From contig CP011806.1 in assembly GCA_001664505.1 (NCBI GenBank), forward strand, positions 4,168,177 through 4,232,176: 64,000 nucleotides of DNA, written 5' to 3'. Position 1 is the stretch's first letter; every line of letters begins with the position of its first letter. The notes beneath the pieces were generated by a model. It saw only the letters and a program-made list of their open reading frames with translations. It was not told the DNA's origin and searched no databases. Below, in pieces: positions 27,572 to 42,791 of this stretch. The position numbers and the translations under genes are program-made. This DNA comes from Acidobacteria bacterium Mor1 (GTDB lineage: Bacteria; Acidobacteriota; Polarisedimenticolia; Polarisedimenticolales; Polarisedimenticolaceae).

Positions 27572-28254
27572 GGGCGCTTGATGAGCATGTAGCCCACTCC
27601 ATGGATCGTTCGAATCCAGGTTGGATCGCGCGGATCGTCGCCCAGCCGCTTGCGTAGTCGCGAGATCCGCAGGTCGATCGACCGGTCGAGGCCGTCGTAG
27701 CCGTAGCCGCGAAGGCGTTGGATCAACTCTTCCCGATCGACAGGTTCCCCGGTATGCCTGGCCAGGAGGAGCAGGATGTCGAACTCGGAGCTGGTCAGCG
27801 ACAGCAGCTCGCCCTCCAGGGTCACGACCCGCCGCCCGAGGTCGAGCCGAAGCTCGCCGTTTCTTATCTCTCCGCGGCCGTCGGCCGGAGACCGCCGCAG
27901 CAGCGCCCGGATCCTCGCCATCAGTCGAGGTGTGTTGGCCGGCTTGGTCATGTAGTCGTCGGCGCCGACATCCAGGCCCAACACCTCGTCGGCCTCTTCG
28001 TCAAGCGAGGTCAGCATCAGGATCGGGCCGTTGTAGCCCTGCTTGCGCACACGCTTGCAGACCTCGATGCCGTTCAGGCCGGGGAGCCGAATATCCAGGA
28101 GCACCAGATCCGGCGACTCCGCGAGAATTCGTTCGACGGCGGTATCTCCTCGGCGTGCGCAATCGGCGAGGAAACCGTGCATCTGCAGCAGTTCGCCGAG
28201 GAGTTCGCCGAGGCGGCGATCGTCTTCGACCAGAAAGATGCGCGGTTGAGTCAT
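27568..28254 (-). CDS. RstA-like OmpR-family response regulator
   Basis: A 228-residue regulator. ATG 28254 is preferred over the longer open frame because GGAG lies 5 nt before it and the receiver domain starts at once (MTQPRIFLVEDD). Asp54 (LVLLDIRLPG) is the phospho-acceptor. The LMLTSLDEEADEVLGLDVGADDYMTKP segment resembles RstA (LTSLD instead of LTA), and the winged-helix domain (LTSSEFDILLLLARHTGEPVDREELIQRLRG...IRTIHGVGYMLIKRP) is complete. A TACA-N6-TACA site, spaced like the RstA box, lies in the intergenic region upstream, so it probably controls itself or the divergent cytochrome gene. Confidence 0.94.
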   Translation of the reverse strand: MTQPRIFLVEDDRRLGELLGELLQMHGFLADCARRGDTAVERILAESPDLVLLDIRLPGLNGIEVCKRVRKQGYNGPILMLTSLDEEADEVLGLDVGADDYMTKPANTPRLMARIRALLRRSPADGRGEIRNGELRLDLGRRVVTLEGELLSLTSSEFDILLLLARHTGEPVDREELIQRLRGYGYDGLDRSIDLRISRLRKRLGDDPRDPTWIRTIHGVGYMLIKRP

Positions 28255-28345
28255 GGACTCCGATGACCTCGAGAGTTCGTTCGCGACGGCCCGTACCGTG
28301 GGTGTCGAGGATTGTATATCCCGCGATTTCAACCGGTTCCAGCGG

Positions 28346-28362
28346 CGATACAACTCGATACA
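28346..28362. promoter_or_regulatory. RstA-box-like direct repeat
   Basis: CGATACA is repeated at 28346-28352 and 28356-28362 with a 10-bp period, giving TACA-N6-TACA at 28349-28362. The Escherichia coli RstA box is TACATNTNGTTACA, which has the same TACA-N6-TACA spacing. The site lies between the divergent RstAB-like pair and the cytochrome gene, where an OmpR-family regulator would bind. Confidence 0.5.
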
Positions 28363-28442
28363 CGCCGATCCTTGATCGCGGTTCGCCCCCGGGCGTACAA
28401 GTTCACCGGAAGTCGTCGCGTTCGATTGCAAGGAGATGGGCC

Positions 28443-31400
28443 ATGAAACGGATCGAGATCGCAGTGATCATGCTCGCGGTGCTGTGGGCCGGTGCAACTG
28501 CCTGGGCGGGATATACCAACTTCGAGGCATCCCACGTCCACCCGATTGCCCTGACGCCGGACGGCACGCGGCTGCTTGCGGTCAACACTCCCGACGCGCT
28601 GCTCGAGGTGTTCGCGGTTCAGCCGGACGGATCCCTGTCGGCATCGTCGGCGATTCCCGTCGGCCTGGAACCGGTGTCCGTGATCGCACGGAACAACGCC
28701 GAGGCCTGGGTGGTGAACAACCTGTCGGACACCATCAGCATCGTCGACCTGTCCCTGGGCCTGACCGTCAGGACGTTGGAGGTCGGAGATGAACCGACCG
28801 ACGTCGCGTTCGCCGGGGGCAGAGCCTTCGTCTCCGTGTCCCAGGAGGACAAGATCCGCGCCTGGTCTCTCTCCGACCTGGACGCTGCCCCGGCCGAGAT
28901 CCCGCTGTTCGGCCGGGACGTCCGGGCCCTCGACGTGGCCCCGGACGGGCAGACCCTCTACGCCGTGGTGCTGCGCTCCGGCAACCTGACCAGCATCGCA
29001 GGGGCTCATCACACCTTCCCTGCGGACTTCATTCTGGACCCGGCGCGCCTGACCGCGATGAATCTCCGCGACTTCAACTGTGAGGGACCTCAGCCCGCCT
29101 ACCCGCCGCTGCCCGCCGGTATCACCCGGAACCCGGACCTGACCGACCCCCCCAGCGGGGTGCCGCCGGTCGCGTTGATGCTGACGTGGAACGAAGCGAC
29201 CGAGCAGTGGATCGACGAAGCAGGCCAGGACTGGAGTCATTGTCTGCACTACAAACCCTCGGATCAGGATCTGTTCGCCATCGATGTCGCCTCACTGGCA
29301 GTCTCGTCGGTGCGTCATCTCGGGACCACGCTGTTCGAGGTCTCGGTCAACCCGGCCAACGGCAAGATCTACGTGCCGAACACCGATGCGCGGAACTTCG
29401 TCCGCTTCGAGCACCCTCTCGGCGTCCAGGGCCACATGGTGGAAAACCAGCTGTCCGTCGTGGACCCCGCCAACGCCAACGGAGTGACCCGCATCGATCT
29501 GAACACCCATATCGACCGCGCGAGTACCCCTCCCGGCAATCTGTCCGAGCGGCAAGCCAGCATCTCCCAGCCGGGCATGCTGGTGTGGAAGGCGGACGGC
29601 TCCAAGGGCTATCTGACCGCGATCGGGAGCCACAAGATTTTCGAGGTCGATGGAAGCTGCACCAGCGGCAACTGTGTGTTCGGCCCGAACCGGGCGGCTC
29701 CAAGGGTGGCGGAGGTGGGGCTCGGTCCCTCGGGAGTCGCGCTGAACGAAGCCCAGGACCGTCTGTACGTGCTCAATCGCATCTCCAACTCGTTGACGAC
29801 GGTCGAGGCTTCGACGCTGACCCCGCTCGAGGAGACTCCACTGCACGACCCCAGTTCCGAATCGACCCGGGAGGGGCGCCTGTTCCTCTACGACGCGATC
29901 GATCTTTCGGCCCACGGGGACGCGGCCTGTTCGAGCTGCCATATTTCCGGCGACCATGACGGCCTCAGCTGGGATCTCGGCAACCCGGCCGGTGAGTTTG
30001 TGCCCTACTCGACGCCGCTGGACAACGTCCGATTCGTCACCCAGGGCTTCTCATTCGATCCGGTGCCCTGCGATCCGGGCAGCCCTTTCTGTGCGGGCCA
30101 TGCCGGCTTCGACCCACAGAAGGGACCGATGGCGACCATGACCCTGCGCTCCATGCTGGAACCCCTGCACTGGCGCGGGGATCGGGCGACGATGAACGAC
30201 TTCAACATGGCGTTCGTCGGGTTGATGGGCGCCGAGGATATCGGTCCGGTGGCCGGGAAGCCGGCGGGCCTCTCGGCTGCCGACATGGAGACCTTCCGTC
30301 AGTTCGCCCTGGATATCCAGATGCCTCCCAACCCCTATCGCGAGGTGGACGACAGCTTGCCCTGCGGGCGTCGCGGCGTGGATCCGGGCTGTGAGGTCCA
30401 GCACACCGGGATGCTGTTCCCGGGGAACCCGACCGAGGGAGACTTCATCTTCCACAACCTGCCCACCGACGGCGGGCTGCCCTGCTCTTCCTGTCACAAC
30501 AGTCCGTTCGGGACCGCCGGAGGCAAGGTCGGCGGGGTCACTCCGGTCGAACCGACCTCCACGGATGCGACCGCTCTGTTCAGCGGTGATTTCAACGCCA
30601 GCCCGCACAATGATCTGGAGGTTGCCCATCTGAGGAACCTCTACGACAAGATCGGTCCGGATATCGCCGACGTGGGAACGACGACGTTGCCCGAGGCGAA
30701 GACGATGTTCGGCTACCTCCATGAAGGCTCGATTCCCGACCTGTACCGTTATCTTTCGCAACAGGACTTCATCCTGAGCGCCGCGAACCAGGCCGCTCAG
30801 GTGCGGGATACGGCGGCGTTTCTGTTCCACTTCCCGACCGGTACCAGGCCGGCGGTAGGCCGCCAGCTGACTCTGCCTGCCGGCACGCCGCCGACGGGCT
30901 CTCCAGACGACGAAGCACTGCTGACGACCCTGATCGACTTGGGAGATCTGGCCGACGTTGCGCGCCACTGCGAGTTGACCGTGTCGACCCTCTCGTCGGG
31001 GCGCCTTCGGGCCTATCACTTGTCCGGCGGGGCCTGGGTGACTGACGTGGCGACCGAGCCGGGGTTGACGACGCTCCAACTGCGCGAGTCGGCCCAGGAC
31101 GTGTTGACCTTCCTCTGCGCGCCCATCGGTTCGGGCGCCCGCCTCGGCGGCAACCGGGACGAAGATGTCGTGCTCAACGGTGACGACTGCGCACCGGGAG
31201 ACGCCGACACCTGGCGCCCGCCGAGTTTCATCGATGACCTGGAGTTGTCGGCCGCGGGAGCGCTGACCCAGGGAACGTGGACCGCTCAGTCGGCGGTGGC
31301 GGGCCCCTCGATCCGCTACGACGTGCTGACCGGGGGCATCCAGGATCTGACCGGATCCGGCCTCGGCTCCGCGACCTGCCTGGTCGGTGACGGGTCGATT

Positions 31401-31535
31401 TCGAGTTTCGAGGACACTCGCCCCGATCCCTTGCCGGGGCAAGGCTTCTACTACCTGATCCGGGCCGAGAATCCCTGCGGCTCCGAAGCGGGTACCGGCC
31501 GTGAGGCTCTCGATGCGTTGACCTGCGGCCCCTAG
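28443..31535 (+). CDS. Secreted YVTN beta-propeller / diheme cytochrome c protein
   Basis: A 1030-residue exported protein. The open frame continues far upstream, but ATG 28443 has AAGGAG 6 nt before it and a signal peptide cleaved near AWAGYT. Residues about 25-470 are a YncE/YVTN-type beta-propeller (HPIALTPDGTRLLAVN, VWVVNNLSDTISIVDLSLGL, GPSGVALNEAQDRLYVLNRISNSLTTVE). The next 350 residues carry two heme-binding CxxCH motifs (Cys496-His500 and Cys681-His685) in a CCP/MauG-like context with TLRSMLEPLHWRGDR. The C-terminal 200 residues lack recognisable domains. A periplasmic or extracellular redox role is likely. A terminator follows 8 nt after the stop. Confidence 0.85.
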   Translation: MKRIEIAVIMLAVLWAGATAWAGYTNFEASHVHPIALTPDGTRLLAVNTPDALLEVFAVQPDGSLSASSAIPVGLEPVSVIARNNAEAWVVNNLSDTISIVDLSLGLTVRTLEVGDEPTDVAFAGGRAFVSVSQEDKIRAWSLSDLDAAPAEIPLFGRDVRALDVAPDGQTLYAVVLRSGNLTSIAGAHHTFPADFILDPARLTAMNLRDFNCEGPQPAYPPLPAGITRNPDLTDPPSGVPPVALMLTWNEATEQWIDEAGQDWSHCLHYKPSDQDLFAIDVASLAVSSVRHLGTTLFEVSVNPANGKIYVPNTDARNFVRFEHPLGVQGHMVENQLSVVDPANANGVTRIDLNTHIDRASTPPGNLSERQASISQPGMLVWKADGSKGYLTAIGSHKIFEVDGSCTSGNCVFGPNRAAPRVAEVGLGPSGVALNEAQDRLYVLNRISNSLTTVEASTLTPLEETPLHDPSSESTREGRLFLYDAIDLSAHGDAACSSCHISGDHDGLSWDLGNPAGEFVPYSTPLDNVRFVTQGFSFDPVPCDPGSPFCAGHAGFDPQKGPMATMTLRSMLEPLHWRGDRATMNDFNMAFVGLMGAEDIGPVAGKPAGLSAADMETFRQFALDIQMPPNPYREVDDSLPCGRRGVDPGCEVQHTGMLFPGNPTEGDFIFHNLPTDGGLPCSSCHNSPFGTAGGKVGGVTPVEPTSTDATALFSGDFNASPHNDLEVAHLRNLYDKIGPDIADVGTTTLPEAKTMFGYLHEGSIPDLYRYLSQQDFILSAANQAAQVRDTAAFLFHFPTGTRPAVGRQLTLPAGTPPTGSPDDEALLTTLIDLGDLADVARHCELTVSTLSSGRLRAYHLSGGAWVTDVATEPGLTTLQLRESAQDVLTFLCAPIGSGARLGGNRDEDVVLNGDDCAPGDADTWRPPSFIDDLELSAAGALTQGTWTAQSAVAGPSIRYDVLTGGIQDLTGSGLGSATCLVGDGSISSFEDTRPDPLPGQGFYYLIRAENPCGSEAGTGREALDALTCGP

Positions 31536-31668: not shown

Positions 31669-32397
31669 ATGCGGCTGTACCGCCAGGAGTGGGACTGGAG
31701 CTGGGACGAACTGAACAAGCGGGTGGTCGACGAGATCGCCGGTCTCAGGAGTTTCGGCCGTGAAGGCCGGGAGCACGTCCCCGGCGCCATCGAGATCACC
31801 ATCCGGGTCGCCAGCGGCAGCGTCGCCACCGTCGAGCAGTTCGCCGCCGATCCGGAGTTCCGCGCCCAGATCGAGGCGGGGTTGCTCAATCGGCTCAATC
31901 GGATTCCGCGCCACGCCCTGCCCGAGATCGCCCTCGGGGTCGTCGCCGACAATCTCGACCGTATCGACGTCAAGGAGGGCACGCTGGCCGCCCCGGCCCG
32001 GCTGCGGCTGCGCCCCCGGGATGGAGACGATGGAGCATGGTCCGCCGTCGAGTACTCCCTGCCCGCTGCCCAACGGTTGTTCGCCGTCGGCCGCGGCCGC
32101 TGGCATGGCGCCGACGATCGCCTGCGCAACGACGTGGCGCTCCCCGCCGAGGCGCGCTTCGTAAGCCGCCGCGCCGCTCAACTGACCCGCAAGGGCCGCT
32201 ATCTCGAGGTGGCGACCCGCGATCAGGGCAAGCACCTGACCGTGGAGTGGAACGAAGAATGGGCCCGCCCCGCCCGGGTCGCTGCCTCCGGCGTACTGGT
32301 CGGTATCGGCGGCGCGATTCATCTCGACGGTATCCAGGCCTCCGACCGCCTGACCCTCGAAGTGTTGGCCGACGACGACGCCCAGGAGGTCTCATGA
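31669..32397 (+). CDS. FhaA-like protein (DUF3662-like plus degenerate FHA)
   Basis: A 242-residue cytoplasmic protein, first gene of the phospho-signalling/cell-wall operon. Residues about 40-110 (HVPGAIEITIRVASGSVATVEQFAADPEFRAQIEAGLLNRLNR, ALPEIALGVVADNLDRIDVKEG) resemble the DUF3662 N-terminal domain of actinobacterial FhaA. Residues 130-235 look like an FHA domain: LFAVGRGRW, RNDVALP, FVSRRAAQLTRKGRYLEVATRD. The usual SRxH histidine is replaced by Ala, so phosphothreonine binding may be weakened. FHA proteins recruit pThr-marked partners; mycobacterial FhaA binds phosphorylated cell-wall factors. It overlaps the next gene by 4 nt (ATGA). The domain calls are by eye. Confidence 0.62.
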   Translation: MRLYRQEWDWSWDELNKRVVDEIAGLRSFGREGREHVPGAIEITIRVASGSVATVEQFAADPEFRAQIEAGLLNRLNRIPRHALPEIALGVVADNLDRIDVKEGTLAAPARLRLRPRDGDDGAWSAVEYSLPAAQRLFAVGRGRWHGADDRLRNDVALPAEARFVSRRAAQLTRKGRYLEVATRDQGKHLTVEWNEEWARPARVAASGVLVGIGGAIHLDGIQASDRLTLEVLADDDAQEVS

Positions 32398-33482
32398 AAT
32401 TGCCTGCGCTCCGCCCGCTGCGGATGAAGCTTCCTTCGGTTCGCATGAACTACCGCCCGGTGCGCCGCATCGGCCGGGACCGCTTCGAGGTTCGCTTCGA
32501 GCGTCTCAAGCGAGAGCTTTTGCCGCTGCGCAAGCAGATCCTGATGGACCGCAGCATGCTGCAGGTCGATCCCCAGCTGATCCTCGAGGCGATCCGCCGG
32601 GTGATGCCCTATTGCGAACTTCACGACGGCGCCGGCAACCGGCTGGTCTGGAACGAGTTCAAGGTGTTTCTCGCCCGTGAAGATCACGACGAGTTCGCGC
32701 CGATGGAGCCGCGGCTGGTGGCCGAGGCGGACCAGGTGCTCGACGCCTACCGCAAGTCCCTGGGCGCCGAGGCGATCGGCGACCTGACCCTGCGCCTGCT
32801 GGTCGACGACAGTGACGCGGTCGAGGGCCGGGTCTCGGTGATTCAGGTGGCGGCCAAGGCCAACAAGGCGCTCAACGAGTACGTCGCGCCGCCCGAAGAG
32901 ATCACCGTGCGGCTGCCCGCCGCGGGCGCGGGGTCGGACAAGGGCGCGTCCAGCCCGGTACCCGGCTACCCGTCGCTCGAGCGTCCCCCCTTCGATTTCC
33001 CCGCGGAACCGGTGGCGGTCGGGTCCGACGGACAGACCGGCGTCCACCCGAACGGAAACGGCGTCAGCCACGGGCTCAACGGCAACGGGCATCACGGCTA
33101 CGCCGCCGAGGACCAGCCCACCGATCGCCTCGTCGAGGACGTGCACGGGCTGACCCTGCGCTGGGACGGTGGTTCGGCGTCGGTCGGCCCCGGCGTGCGC
33201 TGGACCGTGGGGCGTCAGGCCGACACGCCCCCGGCCGACTACTGCATCGCCCTGAGCAACGCCTCGACCCGCATCTCGACCCGCGCCTTCTGGATCGAGG
33301 GCAAGGTCGACGCCGACGGCGAGATCGACGGCGCGACCATCGGGCGCTTCGATCACGACACCGCAAACGCCGTGCACATCAACGGCGAACTGCTCGGCCG
33401 CGGCCAGGAGATTCGCATCTTCGATTTCCCCACCGCCATCGAACTGACCGGCGGTGAATTCCGGCTCAGCCTCGAACGATGA
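32394..33482 (+). CDS. Second FhaA-like protein (DUF3662-like plus degenerate FHA)
   Basis: A 362-residue cytoplasmic protein starting at ATG 32394, overlapping the previous stop. Residues about 60-160 (LVWNEFKVFLAREDHDEFAPMEPRLVAEADQVLDAYRKSLG, IGDLTLRLLVDDSDAVEGRVSVIQV) match the DUF3662/FhaA N-terminal pattern better than the preceding gene. A Pro/Gly/Asn-rich linker with a His/Asn stretch (GNGVSHGLNGNGHHG) follows. The C-terminal 100 residues resemble FHA (VRWTVGRQADTPPADYCIALSNASTRISTRAFWIEG, NAVHINGELLGRGQEIRIFDFPTAIELTGGEFRLSL) with the VGR and HINGE elements but an altered SxxH. It probably serves as an adaptor between kinase and cell-wall machinery. Confidence 0.65.
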   Translation: MKLPALRPLRMKLPSVRMNYRPVRRIGRDRFEVRFERLKRELLPLRKQILMDRSMLQVDPQLILEAIRRVMPYCELHDGAGNRLVWNEFKVFLAREDHDEFAPMEPRLVAEADQVLDAYRKSLGAEAIGDLTLRLLVDDSDAVEGRVSVIQVAAKANKALNEYVAPPEEITVRLPAAGAGSDKGASSPVPGYPSLERPPFDFPAEPVAVGSDGQTGVHPNGNGVSHGLNGNGHHGYAAEDQPTDRLVEDVHGLTLRWDGGSASVGPGVRWTVGRQADTPPADYCIALSNASTRISTRAFWIEGKVDADGEIDGATIGRFDHDTANAVHINGELLGRGQEIRIFDFPTAIELTGGEFRLSLER

Positions 33483-35032
33483 GGCCGGGTGTGGTCAACG
33501 GCCACGAGGCCAACGTGGCCAGTGGTAGCAACGGCATCGCCGTGGGCGCCGTCCAGACCCACAAGGGCCTGGTCCGGGAAAACAACGAGGACAGCTACGT
33601 CTTCGATCTGACCCGGGGGCGCTTCGCCGTAATCGACGGCATGGGCGGCCAGCAGGCGGGAGAGGTCGCCGCGGCGCTGGTGCGCGATTCGCTGCTCGGC
33701 GACGATCAGCTTCCCCGGGCGATCCATCGGGCCAACCAGGAGATCTACGAGCGGGCCGCGTTGAACGAGGTGGAGCAGGGGATGGGATGTGTGGTCACTG
33801 CGGTGCAGATGACCGACAGCCGGCTGCAGATCGCCCACGTCGGGGACACCCGCGCCTACCTCGCCCGCGAAAACGGCTGCCGTCTGCTGACCCGGGATCA
33901 CACGACCACCGCCGATCGCCAGCAGGATCTGGTGCTCAGCGATGCCGTGGCCCGCACGCTGCCCGGGCAACACCAGGTCACCCGGGATGTCGGCGGGCTC
34001 TCCCATACCGACGATTCCTGGATCTTCACCGGCAGCGAACCCTTCGAGCCCGGCGACCTGCTGCTGCTCTGTAGTGACGGGCTGCACGACCTGGTACCCA
34101 GCGACGAACTCTACGGGTTGCTGCGCCAGGCTAAAAACGCCGGCGAAGAACCCTCCCGCCTGGTGCGCCGCCTGGTGCAGCTTGCGTTGGAACGGGGTGG
34201 CAAGGACAACGTCACCGTGCTCGCCGTGCGCCGGGAGGTGCCCGAACTGCCCGAGGTCAAGGTCTCCCGGCCGCCACGTTCATCGCGGACATTGCTGCTC
34301 TCGACATTGGGCGCGGCGCTCCTGGTCGGGGGAGGGTTGATCGGCATCGCCGCCGATCGCTACTGGGGCCAGGCGCCCTTTGCCGCCGAAGGGCTGGTCG
34401 ATGCTTCCCGCCGGCCGACGTTGGTCGCCGCGGGAGCCGCGGGGCTCGCCGGCGAACTACATCCGGCGACCCTCAAGGTGCTGGGAGATCTCGAGGCGCC
34501 GGCGGGAGTGCAGCGCAGCGTGATCCGCGCGCCCGCCTTCGGTGAGGGAGCGGTCGCCGTCCACGGAATGAACCTGCATTTTCCCGCCGAGGGGCGTCAC
34601 GAGTGGGAAATCACCGTGCGTCCCGGCGCAGCGCTGGAATTGACCCAGGCGTCGATCCGTGCGCCCAACCTGGTGCTGCGGGTGGTGTTCGAGGGCGCCG
34701 GCAGCCGGGTGCGTATTCTCGACTCCCATCTCGAGATCGCCGAGTTGATCGTCGACGGAAACGTCGCCGGAGCGTTGGAGCTTCAGGGCGGCTTCGTCGG
34801 CGTGGCCGAGCCCGTGGAGACCTTGTCGACGACTCCGGGGCCGCTGCTGGTCCGTGCGCCCTACCCGGCGCCTGCGCCGCCGGCGGCCGAGGGTGATGTT
34901 TCCGCTGCAGGCGCAGCGGCCGGTCAAGACGCTGACGGCGCTGCAGGGAGCGGCACGGATGGCGCGGCGGAGTCTGCCGGCGCCGGGGGAAATCAAACCA
35001 ACGAGGAGGAGAGCGAGGGCTCTACACCTTGA
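33479..35032 (+). CDS. Membrane PP2C-type Ser/Thr phosphatase (PstP/Stp-like)
   Basis: A 517-residue protein. Residues 18-252 are a complete PP2C domain: VRENNEDSY, AVIDGMGGQQAGEVAA (Asp53), HVGDTRAYLAR (122-129), CSDGLHDLV (Asp200), and GGKDNVTVLAV, with all metal-binding aspartates present. A single membrane helix follows at about 271-292 (LLLSTLGAALLVGGGLIGIAA), then a 220-residue extracytoplasmic region rich in short beta strands (LKVLGDLEAPAGVQRSVIRAP, NLVLRVVFEGAGSRVRILDSHLEIAEL), possibly a beta-helix. Mycobacterial PstP also has a PP2C-membrane-extracellular layout. It removes phosphates placed by Ser/Thr kinases. It overlaps both neighbours by 4 nt. Confidence 0.93.
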   Translation: MRPGVVNGHEANVASGSNGIAVGAVQTHKGLVRENNEDSYVFDLTRGRFAVIDGMGGQQAGEVAAALVRDSLLGDDQLPRAIHRANQEIYERAALNEVEQGMGCVVTAVQMTDSRLQIAHVGDTRAYLARENGCRLLTRDHTTTADRQQDLVLSDAVARTLPGQHQVTRDVGGLSHTDDSWIFTGSEPFEPGDLLLLCSDGLHDLVPSDELYGLLRQAKNAGEEPSRLVRRLVQLALERGGKDNVTVLAVRREVPELPEVKVSRPPRSSRTLLLSTLGAALLVGGGLIGIAADRYWGQAPFAAEGLVDASRRPTLVAAGAAGLAGELHPATLKVLGDLEAPAGVQRSVIRAPAFGEGAVAVHGMNLHFPAEGRHEWEITVRPGAALELTQASIRAPNLVLRVVFEGAGSRVRILDSHLEIAELIVDGNVAGALELQGGFVGVAEPVETLSTTPGPLLVRAPYPAPAPPAAEGDVSAAGAAAGQDADGAAGSGTDGAAESAGAGGNQTNEEESEGSTP

Positions 35033-38000
35033 ACAGTCGCAAGTTCGAGTTGATCCTCTTCGCATCGACCCTTCTGATCAGCCTGTGGCTGGCACACGGG
35101 GTGGTCGATCTGGTCGTGGAACGCGCAGATGCGGCTCGGAGCGCAGCCGCCGCGGAGGCACCGCCGGCCGAGCAGGCCCAGGTCGTCCAGGGATCCGCTG
35201 CGGAAGCGGATGCCGCGTTGCCTACGGTGACGGGTGCCCGTGCCCGGGCGTTGCGCTCCATGGGCTTCTATTTGCTGGGCATGGTCGCCCTCGGGGCCGC
35301 GCGGGTCTACAGCCTGCGCCGGGGCCGGCGGAACCTGCCGGCGTTCTGGATCCTGCCGGCAGTCGCCTGCGCCACCGGCATCGGACTGGTCTCCCAGATG
35401 ACTCACGGCAATCCGCTGGTCGAGGGCAGTTGGCGCGGGCCCGGCTTTGCCCTCGGTGTCGGCCTGGCGGCGCTGCTCTCCGCGGCGATCCTGGCCATGC
35501 CTGCGGATCCGTTGCAGCTACTCCGCCGGTATCGCTTGCCGGTGACGCTGTTCGTAGTCTTCGGCGGCGTCTTGTTGTGGCTCTTCGGTAGCGGTCCCGA
35601 GGGCACTCGCTCCCAGATCAATCTGCACCTCGGTCCGCTTTCGATGCAGCCGATCGAGGCGATCAAGCTGGCCTTCGTCTGCCTGATGGGTTTGTTCCTC
35701 GGCGAGAAGGCGGTGCAGCTGCGCTATCAGCGGGTGCGTGCCGGTTGGCTGCAGTTCCCGCGGCCGCGCTATCTGGCGGCGGCGTGTGCGGCGCTGGGTG
35801 CGCTCTTCATCGTGTTGGCGCTCCTGGTGCGGGACCTGGGGCCGACCCTGGTGCTCTCCTCGGTCTTCCTGCTGTTGTTCTATCTGTCGACCCGCGCCGG
35901 CGGCTGGTTGGTCGCCGCGCTGGCCGTGCTGGCCTTCGGCTTCTGGTTCGTCTCGCTGGATCCGACGATCACCGGGTCCCAGACCCTGGCCACCCGCTTC
36001 GACATGTGGCGCGACCCCTGGATGAACGGACTGCCTCACGGCTCCCAGCTCGCATCGTCGCTGTGGGCCATCGCTGCCGGCGGTTTCGGTGGGCGGGGCC
36101 TGGGCGAGGCGGATGTGGCGGCGCTCCCCGCATCCCACACCGACTTGATGATCGCCCACATCGCCGAGACCACCGGCCTCTGGGGCGGGCTGTTGTACCT
36201 GCTCTGCCTCGGCGCCTGCATCCTGCAGGGGCTGGCGATTGCCGCCCGCAACCGGGAGCCGGAACGGGTGTTGATCGGTGCCGCCTGCTGTTTGCTGCTG
36301 CTCAGTCAGTGGGCGGTGATCTTCGGCGGGACGACCGGCTTGCTGCCCCTGACCGGGCTCGCCGTTCCGTTTCTCTCCTTCGGCAAGAGCAGCATGATCG
36401 CCTTCCTGCTGGCGGTAGCCATCGTGCTGCGCCTGTCGGAGGACGGCGCTCCCCGGGCGGCGACCACCGAGTTGCGGGAGCTGCGCGCCGCCGTTTACCG
36501 GGTGGCCGCCGGGAGCGCCGTGGCGCTGTGCGCCGCCGGTGCCTTCTTGCTGTACCTCGGCGTGGTGCGCGGCCCGGACTACGCGGCTCGCGGCGTGCTC
36601 GAAACCCTGGCCGACGGCACGACCCGGATCCGGCACGACCCCCGTCTCAGCCGCGCGGTCGCGCGCATTCGCCGCGGAGCCCTGCTCGACCGCCACGGCG
36701 AGGTGCTGGTCGGCACCCGGCTCGACGGCCGGCGGGAGTATCCGCTGGGAGATGCCCTGGGAGCGCTTGTCTGTCCGCCGGACGCGGGGCGCGTGCTCCG
36801 CCGCGATTGGTGCCTGGAGCGCATTCACGAGCTGACCCTTCGCGGCTACCCCGAACAGACGGTCCGGCCCGCGCTGTGGCGCACTCCCGACCAAGCTCTC
36901 GGCGAGCGCACCCTGTTCGCCGTGGCCACAGGCGAGGAAACCGCCGACGATCGCCAGCGAGCGACCCTGCTGGCCGGCGGCGAGCCGGTGCGGTTCGTGC
37001 CGCTCTCGGTCCCCGATCTCTCCTCGATGGCGGGGCTCGTGCGCTCGCGCAAGACCAGCAGCCGCGAGCAACTGGAAGCGTTGTCCCAGGATGTGGCGGC
37101 GCGCTCGGTGCGGCTGACCCTCGACGCCGGCCTGCAACAGAAGGCGGCGGAGATCCTGGTCAAACACCTGGGTGAAGGTGCTGCCGCAGCGACGGTGGTC
37201 TTGGATGTCGATACCGGCGAGGTGCTGGCCCGGGCCCAGGCGCCCGACGTCGATCTCTCCAACGACGACTGGTACCGCCCGGTGATCGACGGCGACCCGC
37301 AGTACACCGGGATCTACGGCCCCTGGGCCGACAAGACCGGCACCCTCGGTTTCAAGCAGGCGGGTTCCATCGCCAAGCTGTTCACCACCCTGGCGGCGGC
37401 TCGCGACGGGCTGCCCACGGTGGCGGTCGAGGGCTGCAACATCCGTTCGATCCGGACCTTCGAGTGCACCAAGCGGGATCACATCGGAAGCGTTTTCGAC
37501 CGGCCCGGCTGGGTGCGGCCGATTCACGATCACCCCAAGGATCGCTCCCACGGCGTGATCGATGTCTCCGAGGCGCTGGCCCGGAGTTGCAACGTCGCCT
37601 TCTCGGAGCTGACCCTGGATACCGGGCCGGGCCCGCTCAGGCGTCTGGCCGACCAGGTGGACATCGGCTGGGAGCGCGGTTTCGAGCCGGGCGCTCCGGG
37701 GACCCGCCGGCTGGCTTCTACCGGCATCGGCCAGGGAGCGGCGGTGTTCAACGTGTCCCAGGCGGCGCGCATGGTCGCGGCGATCGGCGGTGGTGGGGTG
37801 TATCGCCGCTGTCCGCCGGGGCTGCGCCTTGGAGATGCCTGCGAGGAGACCCTGCTGGTCGACGACCCCTCACGGCTGGGCATCCTGCTGGCCGGGATGC
37901 GCCGGGCGATGCAGACCGGCACCGGCTCCCTGTTGCCGAAGGTTCCGGGTGTGCGCATGTACGGCAAGACCGGCACCGCCGACTCCGAGGCGACCCGTGA

Positions 38001-38229
38001 CGAGAAGCCCTACGGCATCGGCGAGGAGGATGGGCCCCTGGCGCCGCACTCCTGGTTCGTGGCGCTGGCGGAACCGGAAAGTAACTCCCCCTGCGGCACC
38101 GGCAATACCGGCCGGCTCGCCGTGGCGACGCTGATCGCCCGCGGCGGCGGCGGTACACGCGCCGGAGCGGCCACCGTCGAGATCATCGCCGCGGCTCGCA
38201 ACCTCGGCTATCTCGGCGACGGGCCGTGA
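35029..38229 (+). CDS. SEDS glycosyltransferase-class B PBP fusion (RodA/FtsW-PBP)
   Basis: A single 1066-residue polypeptide joining both halves of a peptidoglycan synthase. Residues 1-160 hold about four membrane helices with a periplasmic loop. Residues 165-470 are a SEDS polymerase: the LPASHTDLMIAHIAETTGLWG motif holds the catalytic-type Asp372, and PFLSFGKSSMIA matches the FLSYGGSS element. After a helix at 490-510, residues 515-1066 form a class B penicillin-binding transpeptidase: SxxK at Ser780-Lys783 (GSIAKLFT), SxN at Ser853-Asn855 (SCNVAF), KTG at Lys980-Gly982 (YGKTGTAD). In most bacteria rodA/ftsW and pbp genes are separate. TTG 35029 overlaps the PP2C stop, after GAGGAGG. Confidence 0.93.
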   Translation: MNSRKFELILFASTLLISLWLAHGVVDLVVERADAARSAAAAEAPPAEQAQVVQGSAAEADAALPTVTGARARALRSMGFYLLGMVALGAARVYSLRRGRRNLPAFWILPAVACATGIGLVSQMTHGNPLVEGSWRGPGFALGVGLAALLSAAILAMPADPLQLLRRYRLPVTLFVVFGGVLLWLFGSGPEGTRSQINLHLGPLSMQPIEAIKLAFVCLMGLFLGEKAVQLRYQRVRAGWLQFPRPRYLAAACAALGALFIVLALLVRDLGPTLVLSSVFLLLFYLSTRAGGWLVAALAVLAFGFWFVSLDPTITGSQTLATRFDMWRDPWMNGLPHGSQLASSLWAIAAGGFGGRGLGEADVAALPASHTDLMIAHIAETTGLWGGLLYLLCLGACILQGLAIAARNREPERVLIGAACCLLLLSQWAVIFGGTTGLLPLTGLAVPFLSFGKSSMIAFLLAVAIVLRLSEDGAPRAATTELRELRAAVYRVAAGSAVALCAAGAFLLYLGVVRGPDYAARGVLETLADGTTRIRHDPRLSRAVARIRRGALLDRHGEVLVGTRLDGRREYPLGDALGALVCPPDAGRVLRRDWCLERIHELTLRGYPEQTVRPALWRTPDQALGERTLFAVATGEETADDRQRATLLAGGEPVRFVPLSVPDLSSMAGLVRSRKTSSREQLEALSQDVAARSVRLTLDAGLQQKAAEILVKHLGEGAAAATVVLDVDTGEVLARAQAPDVDLSNDDWYRPVIDGDPQYTGIYGPWADKTGTLGFKQAGSIAKLFTTLAAARDGLPTVAVEGCNIRSIRTFECTKRDHIGSVFDRPGWVRPIHDHPKDRSHGVIDVSEALARSCNVAFSELTLDTGPGPLRRLADQVDIGWERGFEPGAPGTRRLASTGIGQGAAVFNVSQAARMVAAIGGGGVYRRCPPGLRLGDACEETLLVDDPSRLGILLAGMRRAMQTGTGSLLPKVPGVRMYGKTGTADSEATRDEKPYGIGEEDGPLAPHSWFVALAEPESNSPCGTGNTGRLAVATLIARGGGGTRAGAATVEIIAAARNLGYLGDGP

Positions 38230-40418
38230 GTATGGTGCCCGCGATCGAAATTCCGGGGCACGCCGTGGTGCGGGCCCTGCGCCACGGAGCGGGGTTCGAG
38301 CGCACCGTGCTGTTGACCGAGCGGGACGGCACCCGCTGCGTGACCCGGATCTGGAATACCGAGGTGCCCCGGGACCGGTTGGACATCCTGCGCGGCGTCG
38401 CCGCCGGCAAGGAAATCCCGGCCGACGCGTTCCCCCGGGATCTGGCGGCGGACTTCGAGGGCTACCGCGTACGCGCGAGCCTGGGAGATTTTCCGGCGCT
38501 GTCCGAGGTGATCGACGTCGGCCTGCTCACCCCCGACGACGAGCGTTCACGGCCGTTCATCACCACCCGCTGGGTCGAAGGGGACACCCTGCGGGACGCC
38601 CTGCAGAACTACGAGATCGACTTCGAGCAGCGCGCGCAGATCCTGCGCCAACTGCTGCAGATCCTCGCCGACCTGCATCGCCACAACGTGCTGCACGGGG
38701 ACATCAAACCGGAGAACGTGATCGTCTCTACCGGCCGAACCCATCTGATCGATCTCGATACGCTGCGTCAGGTCCAGGGGCCGACGGATTTCGCAATCGT
38801 CTCCCAGGTCACCTGGTCCCGGGTCTGGCCCGAGTGTCAGCGGGATCGCCCCGACGGGCAGCGGGACTACATCGCATCGCTACCCAGCGATTTGTGGACC
38901 TACGGGCTGCTGGTTTCGGAACTCCTCGGCCGGAAGCTGCCCGGCGATCGCGGGTTCCCTCCGGAGTTGCCTCCGCCGTGGAACGCGGTGCTGAAGGCAT
39001 GCTTGCGGGCCCGTCCCGAGACCCGGCCGAGCACCGAGGAGTTGTTCAAGGCGGTCCACGCCCTGCCGGCAGATCTCGGTTCCTGGGAAGGAGACGGCGA
39101 TCCCTCCCACGACGAGGCCACGGTGCGGGTGCCCGACCGCAATCCCGTCGAGAGACTTCGGGTGGTTCCGCCGCCGCGGTTGACCGACCGGGTCGACGAC
39201 GGCACGGCGAGTGCCGGTGCCGCGGCCGCTTCGGCGGCTCCGGTGCTGCTGGCGGTTCCCGCAGCGGCTGACGGGGTTGCCCCTCGGCCCCACGAGCCGA
39301 CGTCACGGGTCGCCGACTCCGAAGAAATCCCTCCCGATCCCCGCCGGTCCAGGAAGCGGACCGGGTTGTGGCGGGTGCTGCTGTTCGTCGCGCCGATCGC
39401 CCTGCTGCTGGCGCTGGCCAATCTGATGCAGCACAACGAGGCGCCGAACCATCCGGAACTCGCCGAGCTGCGGCGGCAGATGCAGGAACACAAGAGCGAA
39501 CCGGCGTTCAACACCCAGGCTCGAGCTCGCGAACTCGCCGCCGAGGTGGGGGCGGCCGCCTTCGCCTTCGACATGGATCGTCCCGATGTCGCTGCAGACG
39601 CCTGGGGTCTCTACGCGCTGTTCAGCGTGTGGGGTCAGGGATGGCACTTCGCCAGTCAGGGGCAACTGGACCAGCGGGAGTTCGATCTGCATTACTCCCG
39701 CGCCGGTTTCGCCCTCCAAAGGCGTCACTCCCGGGAAGCGCTGCTGGCCCGGGCCATTGCCGCCGGTGCGGCCTGCCGGTTGGGCTGGGGAACACCCCGC
39801 CGCTCCGAATACTGCGACGAGGCCAGGGAGCGAACACGAGACCTGCTGCAGCTGCGCCTCGACGGCTGGTTCAAGATCGAGGTGTTGTGGAACGCCGGCA
39901 TGTTGGAGCGGAATGAGGCGCTGATCGCCTGGGACGCGGGCAACCCTGCGGGCTATCGCCGTCACGCCCAGGCAAACCTGGAACTTTGCGACGCCGGTGA
40001 ATCCATCGTCGGTGAGGCGCCGATCAACGGTTCGGAGTTCGCCGAACACTGCATCGCCGCGGCGTTGGCCGTCGGCGATCCGGGCAAGTGGTTGTGGTGG
40101 ACCGAGGTTCTGGAGGAGACCGGCGCCCGGGATCGCCGCAAGATCGCCGATCACATCTTCCGCAACGCCCACCCCGAATGCAGGGACCAGCCCTTCCGCT
40201 TTGCCGTGTTCCGCGGGCGAGGGCGGGACCCCGGGGCGATCGAGTACTGCGCCTTCCAGGCGTTGACCGCGATGCAGTGTCCCGAACGGGCGCTCCAGTC
40301 GGTCTGCGGCTACGACGAACGAGGCTGCGAACTCCCCGAACCCGGGGACGTGCCCTGGGACCTGGCGGCCCGGGCCCGCAGCCGGGCCGCGACCGCCTCC
40401 TGTTTTCTCGACGACTGA
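38226..40418 (+). CDS. Membrane Ser/Thr-kinase-like protein with altered catalytic motifs
   Basis: A 730-residue protein starting at GTG 38226, overlapping the previous stop. Residues 10-285 have the kinase fold: glycine-rich HGAGFERTVLL, catalytic loop HGDIKPENVIV (157-167; Asp159, Asn164) and APE-region-like DLWTYGLLVSELLGRKLPGD, then RPSTEELFKAV. The usual VAIK lysine is Arg41 (VTRIW), HRD reads HGD, and DFG reads DLD (176-178), so it may be a weak kinase or pseudokinase. A Pro/Ala-rich linker leads to a membrane helix at about 381-401 and a 330-residue periplasmic helical region with ten cysteines and no PASTA repeats. It occupies the place of pknA/pknB in the actinobacterial locus. Confidence 0.85.
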   Translation: MSMVPAIEIPGHAVVRALRHGAGFERTVLLTERDGTRCVTRIWNTEVPRDRLDILRGVAAGKEIPADAFPRDLAADFEGYRVRASLGDFPALSEVIDVGLLTPDDERSRPFITTRWVEGDTLRDALQNYEIDFEQRAQILRQLLQILADLHRHNVLHGDIKPENVIVSTGRTHLIDLDTLRQVQGPTDFAIVSQVTWSRVWPECQRDRPDGQRDYIASLPSDLWTYGLLVSELLGRKLPGDRGFPPELPPPWNAVLKACLRARPETRPSTEELFKAVHALPADLGSWEGDGDPSHDEATVRVPDRNPVERLRVVPPPRLTDRVDDGTASAGAAAASAAPVLLAVPAAADGVAPRPHEPTSRVADSEEIPPDPRRSRKRTGLWRVLLFVAPIALLLALANLMQHNEAPNHPELAELRRQMQEHKSEPAFNTQARARELAAEVGAAAFAFDMDRPDVAADAWGLYALFSVWGQGWHFASQGQLDQREFDLHYSRAGFALQRRHSREALLARAIAAGAACRLGWGTPRRSEYCDEARERTRDLLQLRLDGWFKIEVLWNAGMLERNEALIAWDAGNPAGYRRHAQANLELCDAGESIVGEAPINGSEFAEHCIAAALAVGDPGKWLWWTEVLEETGARDRRKIADHIFRNAHPECRDQPFRFAVFRGRGRDPGAIEYCAFQALTAMQCPERALQSVCGYDERGCELPEPGDVPWDLAARARSRAATASCFLDD

Positions 40419-40481
40419 CGGCAGGGTGGGTGTGATGAGTAGGCCTTTTGATCGCGATGACCGAACGAAGAGGTGCCGGCC

Positions 40482-41195
40482 GTGAACGTGATGCTCGAAG
40501 TCGACGGAAAGATGCACCGGGTGGAACTGTCCGACGAGTCGCCGCTACTCGATGTGGGGCGGCTGCCCCAGAACCACATCACGCTCCACGAGCCGAGCAG
40601 TATCTCGGGCCGGCATCTGACCATTCGCTGGTCCGACGGCTGGTGGGTTCAGGACAGCTCGACCAACGGCACCCGGGTCAACGGCAGCTGGTTCCGGGGA
40701 AGCGCGGTGGCCCTGGATGTCGATTCGGTCCTCGAGGTCGAGGGGCATGTCCTGATCGTCCACGACCTGCCGGTGCCGGTCTCCGAAGCCACCGACCGTG
40801 CCCGCTCGCTGCTGCTGCTGGCGCTCAACGACGGCGTCGTCAAACTCCACGCCGGCCAGGGAGAGGTGATCGCCGCGATTCCGCCCCAGCAGTACAACCT
40901 GCTGCGGGAGCTGGTGATGCGTTGGCGGGGCCTCGAGTTCGGCTCCGTCGACCGGGAGCAGGAGTTCGCGCTGCTGGGCTCCCTGGAGGCCGGCGCCGAT
41001 CCCAACGTGCGCTTGCACCAGTGCCGCTGCCGGCTGCGCAAGTGGTGGCGGGAGCTGCGCAAGACCGAGCCCCGTGCGCTTCAGGGGTTGCCCCGGGACC
41101 TGCTGGAGGTTCAGGCGGGCGGCGTGCGGCTGACCCTCGAGGCGGCCGCGGTGGATGTGGAGAGCTACGAGCTGGAACGGCCCCAGCGAGGCTAG
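40482..41195 (+). CDS. FHA domain protein with winged-helix-like C-terminus
   Basis: A 237-residue cytoplasmic protein. GTG 40482 is preferred because GAAGAGG lies 8 nt before it; GTG 40473 is too close. Residues 2-95 form a canonical FHA domain: LLDVGRLPQNHITL, SSISGRHLTIRW and DSSTNGTRVNG hold the conserved Gly-Arg, Ser-Arg-His and Asn residues for phosphothreonine binding. Residues 105-237 resemble an OmpR-type winged helix: IPPQQYNLLRELVMRW, VDREQEFALLGSL, VRLHQCRCRLRKWWRELRK, LEVQAGGVRLTL. It could turn kinase output into transcription, as mycobacterial EmbR does with a different domain order; this is inference. It is last in the operon, 63 bases after the kinase gene. Confidence 0.82.
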   Translation: MNVMLEVDGKMHRVELSDESPLLDVGRLPQNHITLHEPSSISGRHLTIRWSDGWWVQDSSTNGTRVNGSWFRGSAVALDVDSVLEVEGHVLIVHDLPVPVSEATDRARSLLLLALNDGVVKLHAGQGEVIAAIPPQQYNLLRELVMRWRGLEFGSVDREQEFALLGSLEAGADPNVRLHQCRCRLRKWWRELRKTEPRALQGLPRDLLEVQAGGVRLTLEAAAVDVESYELERPQRG

Positions 41196-41234: not shown

Positions 41235-42791
41235 ATGAGATTCGATCGGTCGGTACGCGTCCTCTCTCTCACACTGTTTTTAGGTCTCTGTTTGCCCGCG
41301 TCGGCGGCGACGCCCGGCTGGGAGGCCTTTGATCGCTACGTGGCCGCGGCCGCCGAAGAGTGGCGGGTGCCCGGGCTGGCCATCGCCGTGGTCAAGGACG
41401 GGGAGCTGGTGTTCGAAGGGGGCTACGGAACGACCCGGCTGGGCGACGGCACGCCGGTCGACCCGGACACGTTGTTCTCCATCGGATCGACCACCAAGGC
41501 GATGACCGCCGCCGCGATCGGCATGCTGGTCGACGAGGGCAAGCTTGCCTGGGACGACCCGGTGACGAAGTACCTGCCTGGTTTCCGCCTGGCCGATCCC
41601 ACCGCCACGGCCCAACTCCGGGTGCGGGATCTGCTGACCCACAACGCGGGGGTGCCCAATACCGACCTGCTCTGGTACGAGCAGGACCACGATCTTGACG
41701 AGATCCTGCGGCGCATGCAGTACGTGGAGTTGCAGACGCCGATGTACTCCCGCTTCGAGTACCAGAACGTGATGTACGCCGCGGCCGGAAAGTTGACCGA
41801 GGTGGTCTCGGGGAAGTCCTGGGTCGAGTTCATCGAGAGCCGCATCTTCGCGCCGCTTCAGATGACCCGTTCGGTGGCCAGCCTCGCTCGCAGCGAGCTG
41901 CGGGATAACGTCGCCTCGCCTCACTACATGATTGACGACGAGGTAGCGGTCATCGAGAACGCTACCGTCGACTCGGTGTCGGCGGCGGGTTCGGTCTGGT
42001 CCAGCGTGCGGGAGATGAGCCGCTGGTCCCGCTTCCTGCTCGAAGGCTGCGTCACTGCCGCGGGTGAGCGGCTACTCGCCGCGGCGACCTGCGACGAGCT
42101 GTTCCGGCCGCGGACGCTGATTCACGAAGAGGTCTACCCGGCGATGCGGCTCTATCCCCAACGCTGGTTCAGCTACAGCCTCGGCTGGTTCCAGACCGAC
42201 TACAACCGGAGGGTGCTGGACATGCACACCGGTTCCATCGACGGGCTGGTGGCGATCCACGGGTTGGTGCGCGCCGAGAAACTGGGCGTGGTGATGCTGG
42301 CCAACCTGGATCACGCCGAGCTGCGCCACGCCCTGATGTACCAGGCCCTCGATCACCTCGATCCGTCGATCGCCGCCGACGACCGCCGGGACTGGAACCG
42401 TGAGGTCAAGGAGTTGTTCGACGAGATCCGCAGGGAAGGAGAGGCCCGAGCCGAGCAGGCCGAGCGTGAGTTGCGAGCCGACCCCCGTCCGGCTCGGGCG
42501 CCCGACGCCTACGCCGGTACCTACGTCGATCAACTCTTCGGCGAGGTGCAGGTCACCCAGGAAGGAGACCGTCTGCGCCTGAGCTTCGGCCGGATGGCCT
42601 GCACCCTCGAGCCTTCGGGGGGCGACAGCGCCCGCTGCCCGCTGGACTCCCGCTGGCGAGGAGAATCGACGGTGATCTTCGTGCCCGGCCCCCGAGGACA
42701 CATTCGCCAGCTGCGTATGTGGGGGCTGGAGTTCAACAAGCGTCGTCTGCCGGCATCCCCTGAAGCGGGAGACGGCGCGGAAGGCAGCTAG
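41235..42791 (+). CDS. Serine hydrolase, class C beta-lactamase family with C-terminal domain
   Basis: A 518-residue exported protein with signal peptide cleaved near ASAATPGW. Motifs of the class C beta-lactamase/DD-peptidase fold are clear: SxxK Ser85-Lys88 (FSIGSTTKAMTAAAIG), YxN in FEYQNVMYAAAGKLTEVVSGKSW, and HTG in DMHTGSIDGLVAIHG. The last 110 residues (DAYAGTYVDQLFGEVQVTQEGDRLRLSFG...LRMWGLEFNKRRL) resemble the DUF3471 beta-barrel appended to peptidase-like members. CAGGGGG lies before the ATG. It follows the kinase/FHA operon by 39 bases but has its own ribosome site and may be separately transcribed. Its stop codon overlaps the convergent gene's stop (CTAG). Confidence 0.9.
   Translation: MRFDRSVRVLSLTLFLGLCLPASAATPGWEAFDRYVAAAAEEWRVPGLAIAVVKDGELVFEGGYGTTRLGDGTPVDPDTLFSIGSTTKAMTAAAIGMLVDEGKLAWDDPVTKYLPGFRLADPTATAQLRVRDLLTHNAGVPNTDLLWYEQDHDLDEILRRMQYVELQTPMYSRFEYQNVMYAAAGKLTEVVSGKSWVEFIESRIFAPLQMTRSVASLARSELRDNVASPHYMIDDEVAVIENATVDSVSAAGSVWSSVREMSRWSRFLLEGCVTAAGERLLAAATCDELFRPRTLIHEEVYPAMRLYPQRWFSYSLGWFQTDYNRRVLDMHTGSIDGLVAIHGLVRAEKLGVVMLANLDHAELRHALMYQALDHLDPSIAADDRRDWNREVKELFDEIRREGEARAEQAERELRADPRPARAPDAYAGTYVDQLFGEVQVTQEGDRLRLSFGRMACTLEPSGGDSARCPLDSRWRGESTVIFVPGPRGHIRQLRMWGLEFNKRRLPASPEAGDGAEGS

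Follow-up and report, generated by a model that had tools for sequence, protein, structure and literature searches.

In most bacteria, the SEDS polymerase and the class B penicillin-binding protein (PBP) that crosslinks the glycan are two separate proteins. In the 64,000-nucleotide stretch of Acidobacteria bacterium Mor1 DNA analysed here (contig CP011806.1, positions 4,168,177 to 4,232,176; hereafter the window), both are encoded by a single gene at positions 35029-38229 of the plus strand, and we compared this SEDS-class B PBP fusion and its operon with the closest described systems. The first of these are the RodA-PBP2 and FtsW-FtsI pairs of E. coli, T. thermophilus and P. aeruginosa. The fusion resembles them in having a SEDS fold with the catalytic Asp and a class B PBP with its transmembrane (TM) helix and motifs, but it differs in the covalent join, in extra N-terminal helices, in falling into separate clades and in NCBIfam equivalog scores that lie below the cut-offs.

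Engineered fusions offer a second comparison. According to PMC6207328, artificially joined RodA-PBP2 proteins polymerise lipid II and bring back the rod shape to a large extent, the D262A substitution abolishes the polymerase activity of such a fusion, and RodA of E. coli is activated by changes in the pedestal of PBP2, with MreC as the proposed trigger. The RodA-PBP2 construct has the same SEDS-then-PBP order as the natural fusion and, as described in that paper, is functional as one chain. The engineered SpoVE-SpoVD and RodA-PBP2 proteins are man-made and carry flexible linkers, whereas in our model the natural link consists of about 8 residues between the last SEDS helix and the TM helix of the PBP. 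Natural SEDS-PBP fusions in a single open reading frame (ORF) are stated to exist in PMC10449877 (2023), which cites the genome of Rhodococcus sp. RHA1 (McLeod 2006); the Rhodococcus fusion, also one ORF for both enzymes, is likened to the present one through that statement and not by sequence. The first-pass annotation of the window had left open whether such fusions were already described. The kind is already known; in the literature searched, mostly papers outside subscription, we found no description of the Acidobacteriota fusion family, its spread or its phospho-operon, and this family with its operon is new.

The third comparison is with Actinobacteria. There, pstP, rodA, pbpA and a gene for a PASTA kinase are conserved neighbours, fhaA and fhaB belong to that locus as well, and PstP, once purified, removes phosphate groups from PbpA and the kinases in vitro (PMC6554272). 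Like the pstP-rodA-pbpA-pknA/pknB-fhaA/fhaB locus of M. smegmatis and M. tuberculosis, the locus described here links genes for a PP2C phosphatase with a TM helix, a SEDS protein, a class B PBP, a Ser/Thr kinase and FHA proteins. Unlike in that locus, rodA and pbpA are merged, the kinases scanned carry no PASTA domain, the carriers belong to other phyla, and PbpA does not fall within the fusion clade of the transpeptidase tree.

The fusion gene starts with TTG and runs as a single intact frame, without an internal stop, for 1066 aa. In a Pfam scan, residues 156-471 matched FTSW_RODA_SPOVE (PF01098; E 9.7e-47; 160.1 bits against a curated cut-off of 26.4), which places this half in the SEDS family, and residues 721-1016 matched Transpeptidase (PF00905; E 2.1e-18; 67 bits against a curated cut-off of 22.1); no GT51 match was obtained at E 0.01. 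Asp372 (codon 36142-36144) aligned with Asp262 of E. coli K-12 RodA, in an HTD motif that is also present in the RodA and FtsW encoded by the same genome. The three transpeptidase motifs of a class B PBP are intact, namely SxxK (S780/K783), SxN (S853/N855) and KTG (K980/G982).

The whole-chain AlphaFold2 model, built with a 46-row alignment, has a mean pLDDT (predicted local distance difference test) of 86.9 and a pTM (predicted template modelling score) of 0.84, and shows both enzymes in one confident structure. The SEDS domain (residues 108-471; 35350-36441) consists of ten TM helices with the catalytic Asp before helix 8. It is followed by a long helix (residues 480-513; 36466-36567), which fits the TM anchor of the PBP, and by a class B PBP body that extends to the C-terminus (36571-38226) and contains an RG..D motif, a short non-GT51 pedestal and the transpeptidase, with the class B PBP fold match starting at about residue 543. 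In VIA-align, the PBP half was matched to class B PBPs with Z of about 39-41 over 349-400 residues. The top Foldseek match of the PBP body was M. tuberculosis PbpA, and in VIA-align P. aeruginosa PBP3, an Atopobium PBP and PbpA lay within little more than 1 Z of one another, so that this comparison cannot decide the PBP subtype. The Pfam domains, the motif alignment, the RodA alignment and the model all agree with the proposal of the first-pass annotation that this is a natural one-polypeptide fusion. The same annotation had assigned extra membrane helices to residues 1-160; an N-terminal extension is present, but it comprises two helices (2-42 and 67-98; 35029-35322) joined by a short loop (42-63, pLDDT under 50), and residues 108-156 are TM helices 1 and 2 of the SEDS domain.

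In common-type relatives, which are defined below by their gene order, the loop of the extension is replaced by a folded domain of roughly 100 residues between the two helices (model of L040 from the cultured Occallatibacter savannae, pLDDT 89.1). This well-folded N-terminal domain, encoded at 7398-8036 of L040, had no Foldseek match at E 0.001 or below and reached a VIA Z of at most 6.8, chiefly with unrelated helical proteins. The GspK-type pseudopilin XcpX (6utu_C) ranked ninth (Z 5.8, root-mean-square deviation 2.7, 71 aligned residues), a weak likeness that can serve as a lead only.

A ten-member alignment was used to scan 84,980 species genomes, which gave 211 confirmed related stretches, and the best 80 (L030-L109) were kept; because these are the best matches, the set leans to full-length copies and gives no unbiased count of fused and unfused genes. 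According to their record titles, 76 of the 80 belong to the Acidobacteriota, and the others are a Myxococcota metagenome-assembled genome (MAG; L032), an 'uncultured proteobacterium' MAG (L031), an unassigned bacterium (L087) and Roseithermus sacchariphilus of the Rhodothermota (L107). Judged by alignment columns, the SEDS Asp and the SxN motif share one frame in 81/81 rows (the window and the 80 relatives). A stop or frameshift at about residues 470-515, which the first-pass annotation had named as its own refutation, is contradicted by these 80 independent relatives, and the candidate explanation of two genes with a missed stop is ruled out. The SEDS Asp itself is conserved in all 81 rows and the full set of checked catalytic residues in 76, the exceptions being L067, L068 and L103 (the contig end cuts the frame), L073 (changed transpeptidase residues) and L101 (a frame break near KTG).

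The spread of the fusion was estimated with a family profile, counting matches that span both halves. Among 396 evenly drawn Acidobacteriota genomes, 11 carry the fusion; the remaining 27 of the 38 matching genomes show the PBP only. In the phylum of Roseithermus, 11/296 genomes have a match that bridges the junction within an open frame of at least 1222 aa. Both counts are lower bounds, since two candidates per genome were scored. Two genomes (G403 and G538) contain two fusion-type frames each, and a plasmid search with the fusion (tblastn) gave no match.

The ancestry of both halves was analysed with phylogenetic trees. In the SEDS tree (41 rows, without actinobacterial RodA), 26 fusions, namely 23 of the 81 rows plus 3, are split by a 100/100 branch from 15 stand-alone FtsW/RodA proteins of carrier genomes, one of which (L174) is represented by 218 residues only. 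In the transpeptidase tree (39 rows), a 100/98 branch separates 24 fusions (22 of the 81 plus 2 from the phylum of Roseithermus) from FtsI, PBP2 and two actinobacterial PBPs; L140 and L149 are not included, L140 having been dropped because its cut stretch has no open frame with KTGT. In both trees, a subclade made up of the window, L030, L031 and L032 is supported at 100/100. The fusions are one clade in both trees, and a single join followed by joint inheritance is the simplest account of the rows compared. When the family profile was run against PDB sequences, the best match was M. tuberculosis PbpA (154.8 bits), and MrdA scored 145.1. In the tree, PbpA lies outside the fusion clade without a firm position (neighbouring fork 88/39), and the fusion may or may not descend from actinobacterial RodA-PbpA.

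The host genome forms a single closed contig (5,985,000 bases, completeness 99.98%), and a search for separate rodA, ftsW and pbp genes, which the first-pass annotation had suggested, was fruitful. There are three SEDS genes: the fusion, one by PBP2 and MreB, and one near FtsI. MreB (304081), PBP2 (307300) and RodA (308396) are clustered, FtsI (3190452) and FtsW (3197113) lie near each other, and four more PBPs are encoded in frames of 757-893 aa. Since separate ftsW, rodA, ftsI and mrdA genes are present elsewhere, the fusion is an additional synthase gene, the third SEDS synthase beside the RodA-PBP2 and FtsW-FtsI pairs. Stand-alone SEDS genes were also found in 12/12 carrier genomes, two in 10 of them and one in the other 2, both of which are MAGs.

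The fusion is the fourth gene of an operon in which the first five genes have a 4-base overlap at all four junctions and are probably co-transcribed, all on the plus strand. The first gene (31669-32397) encodes a 242-aa FHA-like protein, in which the conserved FHA His is replaced by Ala (SRRAA); L030, L031 and L032 have homologues in the corresponding position. The second (32394-33482), whose ATG lies within the 4-base overlap, encodes a 362-aa FhaA_N-type protein (PF12401, E 2.9e-7) with a C-terminal FHA-like region. It is followed by a PP2C-type Ser/Thr phosphatase (33479-35032; PF00481, E 1.2e-17) with one TM helix by hydropathy (272-290), a C-terminal region beyond the membrane and an NF033484 score below the cut-off. 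Directly after the fusion, a membrane-anchored kinase-like protein of 730 aa is encoded (38226-40418; TM helix 384-402); it matches PF00069 from profile position 74 (E 3.7e-15) and keeps the catalytic-loop HGD..K..N. The next gene (40473-41195, start codon uncertain) encodes an intact-looking FHA domain (PF00498, E 2.9e-10) followed by a C-terminal part without a domain assignment; no relative of it was found beside the other 80 fusions, and it is fusion-linked in the window only. Farther downstream on the same strand, 41235-42791 encodes a serine beta-lactamase-family protein (PF00144, E 4e-61) with DUF3471. Upstream of the operon, a long frame (27621-31535) contains several CxxCH motifs resembling haem-binding sites and is weakly matched to a beta-propeller; its N-terminal part looks non-coding.

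Two types of gene order were observed. The window-type order is FHA-FHA-PP2C-fusion-kinase-like-FHA; its FHA-FHA-PP2C-fusion part is present in 4/4 window-type loci (window, L030, L031 and L032), a kinase-like gene follows the fusion in three (window, L031 and L032), and a kinase gene precedes it in two (L030 and L032). The common-type order is PP2C, kinase, fusion, FHA. Among the 77 loci L033-L109, flanks of at least 5 kb upstream and at least 0.9 kb downstream are available for 49, and PP2C, kinase and FHA neighbours accompany the fusion in 44 of these 49. The five exceptions are L056, L058 and L077 (no PP2C match), L102 (no FHA match) and L107, in which the PP2C belongs to the fused chain itself and a kinase was not detected. 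Neighbour calls were confirmed with Pfam on sampled loci; it is important to mention that matches at the window, L030, L032, L040, L041 and L104 arise by construction, because the queries were partly taken there. The common-type kinases of L040, L041, L101 and L104 retain the N-lobe Lys, the catalytic-loop Asp and DFG in the alignment. The common-type PP2C of L040 (3926-5470) carries at its C-terminus a right-handed beta-helix (PF13229, E 8e-11), which might sense the wall.

Taken together, these results make it probable that the fusion is a dedicated, phosphorylation-controlled and permanently 1:1 bifunctional peptidoglycan synthase beside the two housekeeping pairs. The SEDS half, through Asp372, would polymerise lipid II in the membrane and pass the strand to the PBP half, which is anchored above it in the same chain by a TM helix of its own that immediately follows SEDS helix 10 and which would crosslink the strand. 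The covalent join would make the SEDS-PBP pairing permanent. The covalent link does not remove the need for an activating trigger. The suggestion of the first-pass annotation that a fused enzyme must be activated by other means can now be turned into a concrete hypothesis involving the PP2C, kinase and FHA proteins of the operon. By analogy with the actinobacterial locus, activity or placement would most likely be set by the co-encoded membrane kinase, the membrane PP2C and the FHA readers, the kinase and the PP2C each with a part beyond the membrane; as the operon suggests, the trigger may come from this relay together with the extra N-terminal helices.

Several observations weigh against this reading. 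The fusion cannot be assigned by simple orthology to RodA (TIGR02210, 121.6 against an equivalog cut-off of 336.7), FtsW (TIGR02614, 145.3 against 337.5) or PBP2/MrdA (TIGR03423, 95.1 against 455), and these scores together with both trees lead us to reject all three assignments. The five further genomes sampled from the same family as the window species showed no fusion, and at family scale it is therefore dispensable. In L073 (2-3220) the SxxK and KTG residues are lost and the SEDS Asp is kept, so that this relative is possibly a polymerase-only member. Among the kinases scanned (window, L030, L031, L032, L040 and L104), none gave a PASTA match. In the kinase-like protein of the window, DFG is changed to DLD and the N-lobe Lys appears to be replaced by Arg in the alignment, and the two upstream FHA-like proteins of the window gave no Pfam FHA match; for these reasons phospho-control may be degenerate in the window operon. 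On this evidence, the relay appears unimpaired in common-type loci and modified in the window operon.

Among the alternatives, the one that survives best, although we consider it unlikely, is that the fusion is an ordinary extra SEDS-PBP pair, joined by chance, which would serve as a backup elongation synthase on MreB/MreC while the phospho-genes regulate other things. The genome does encode MreB with a RodA/PBP2 pair, and RodA-PBP2 fusions made artificially are functional in the Rod system of E. coli; against this stand the PP2C, kinase and FHA neighbours kept in nearly all loci with enough flank, the in-frame joining of PP2C to the fusion in Roseithermus, and the grouping of the fusion halves with neither RodA nor PBP2. 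Somewhat less likely still is a synthase reserved for a certain stage or stress (dormant cells, cysts, repair of the envelope or predation), comparable to SpoVE-SpoVD. Such a role, which partly overlaps with the dedicated synthase that we prefer, would agree with the patchy spread among the sampled Acidobacteriota, with the presence of two housekeeping pairs beside the fusion in most carriers and with a beta-helix on the L040 PP2C that could read the wall, but no differentiation genes were noted beside the fusion. A degenerate paralogue lacking one or both activities is very improbable: the residue losses in L073, the frame break in L101 and the degenerate-looking kinase and FHA proteins of the window type would fit it, whereas the window fusion keeps all catalytic residues, as do most rows, and is modelled with high confidence. 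Finally, an error of sequencing or assembly that merged two neighbouring genes can practically be dismissed, for although the window was read from one assembly only, the 80 loci come from other assemblies and carry the join in one frame, and the host genome is closed and nearly complete.

A more far-reaching form of the preferred explanation, which we put forward only tentatively, is that these dedicated fusions constitute a third self-contained class of synthase, with one origin, a kinase/PP2C/FHA switch in place of MreC/FtsQLBN, and the N-terminal membrane domain as a built-in activator. In the closed genome of R. sacchariphilus, the PP2C, SEDS and PBP transpeptidase parts are encoded in one frame of 1387 aa (L107, 6363-10523); in L111 of genome G437, a 65% identical relative, the PP2C is a separate frame directly upstream. 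If the self-contained class is real, the Roseithermus protein would hold the switch, the polymerase and the crosslinker in one polypeptide.

In cell-wall biology and antibiotic research, two questions still await an answer: how polymerisation is coordinated with crosslinking, and how SEDS-PBP pairs become active. Prior structural work needed artificially built SEDS-PBP fusions; with a natural fusion, assembly of the complex no longer has to be taken into account, and the protein lends itself to structural and kinetic work. Acidobacteriota are an abundant and little-studied soil phylum. Because the conserved fused family described here adjoins protein-phosphorylation switches, it already provides a system for testing how the polymerase and the crosslinker are linked and regulated, and its own PP2C/kinase/FHA operon would make the phospho-control of SEDS proteins directly testable outside Actinobacteria.

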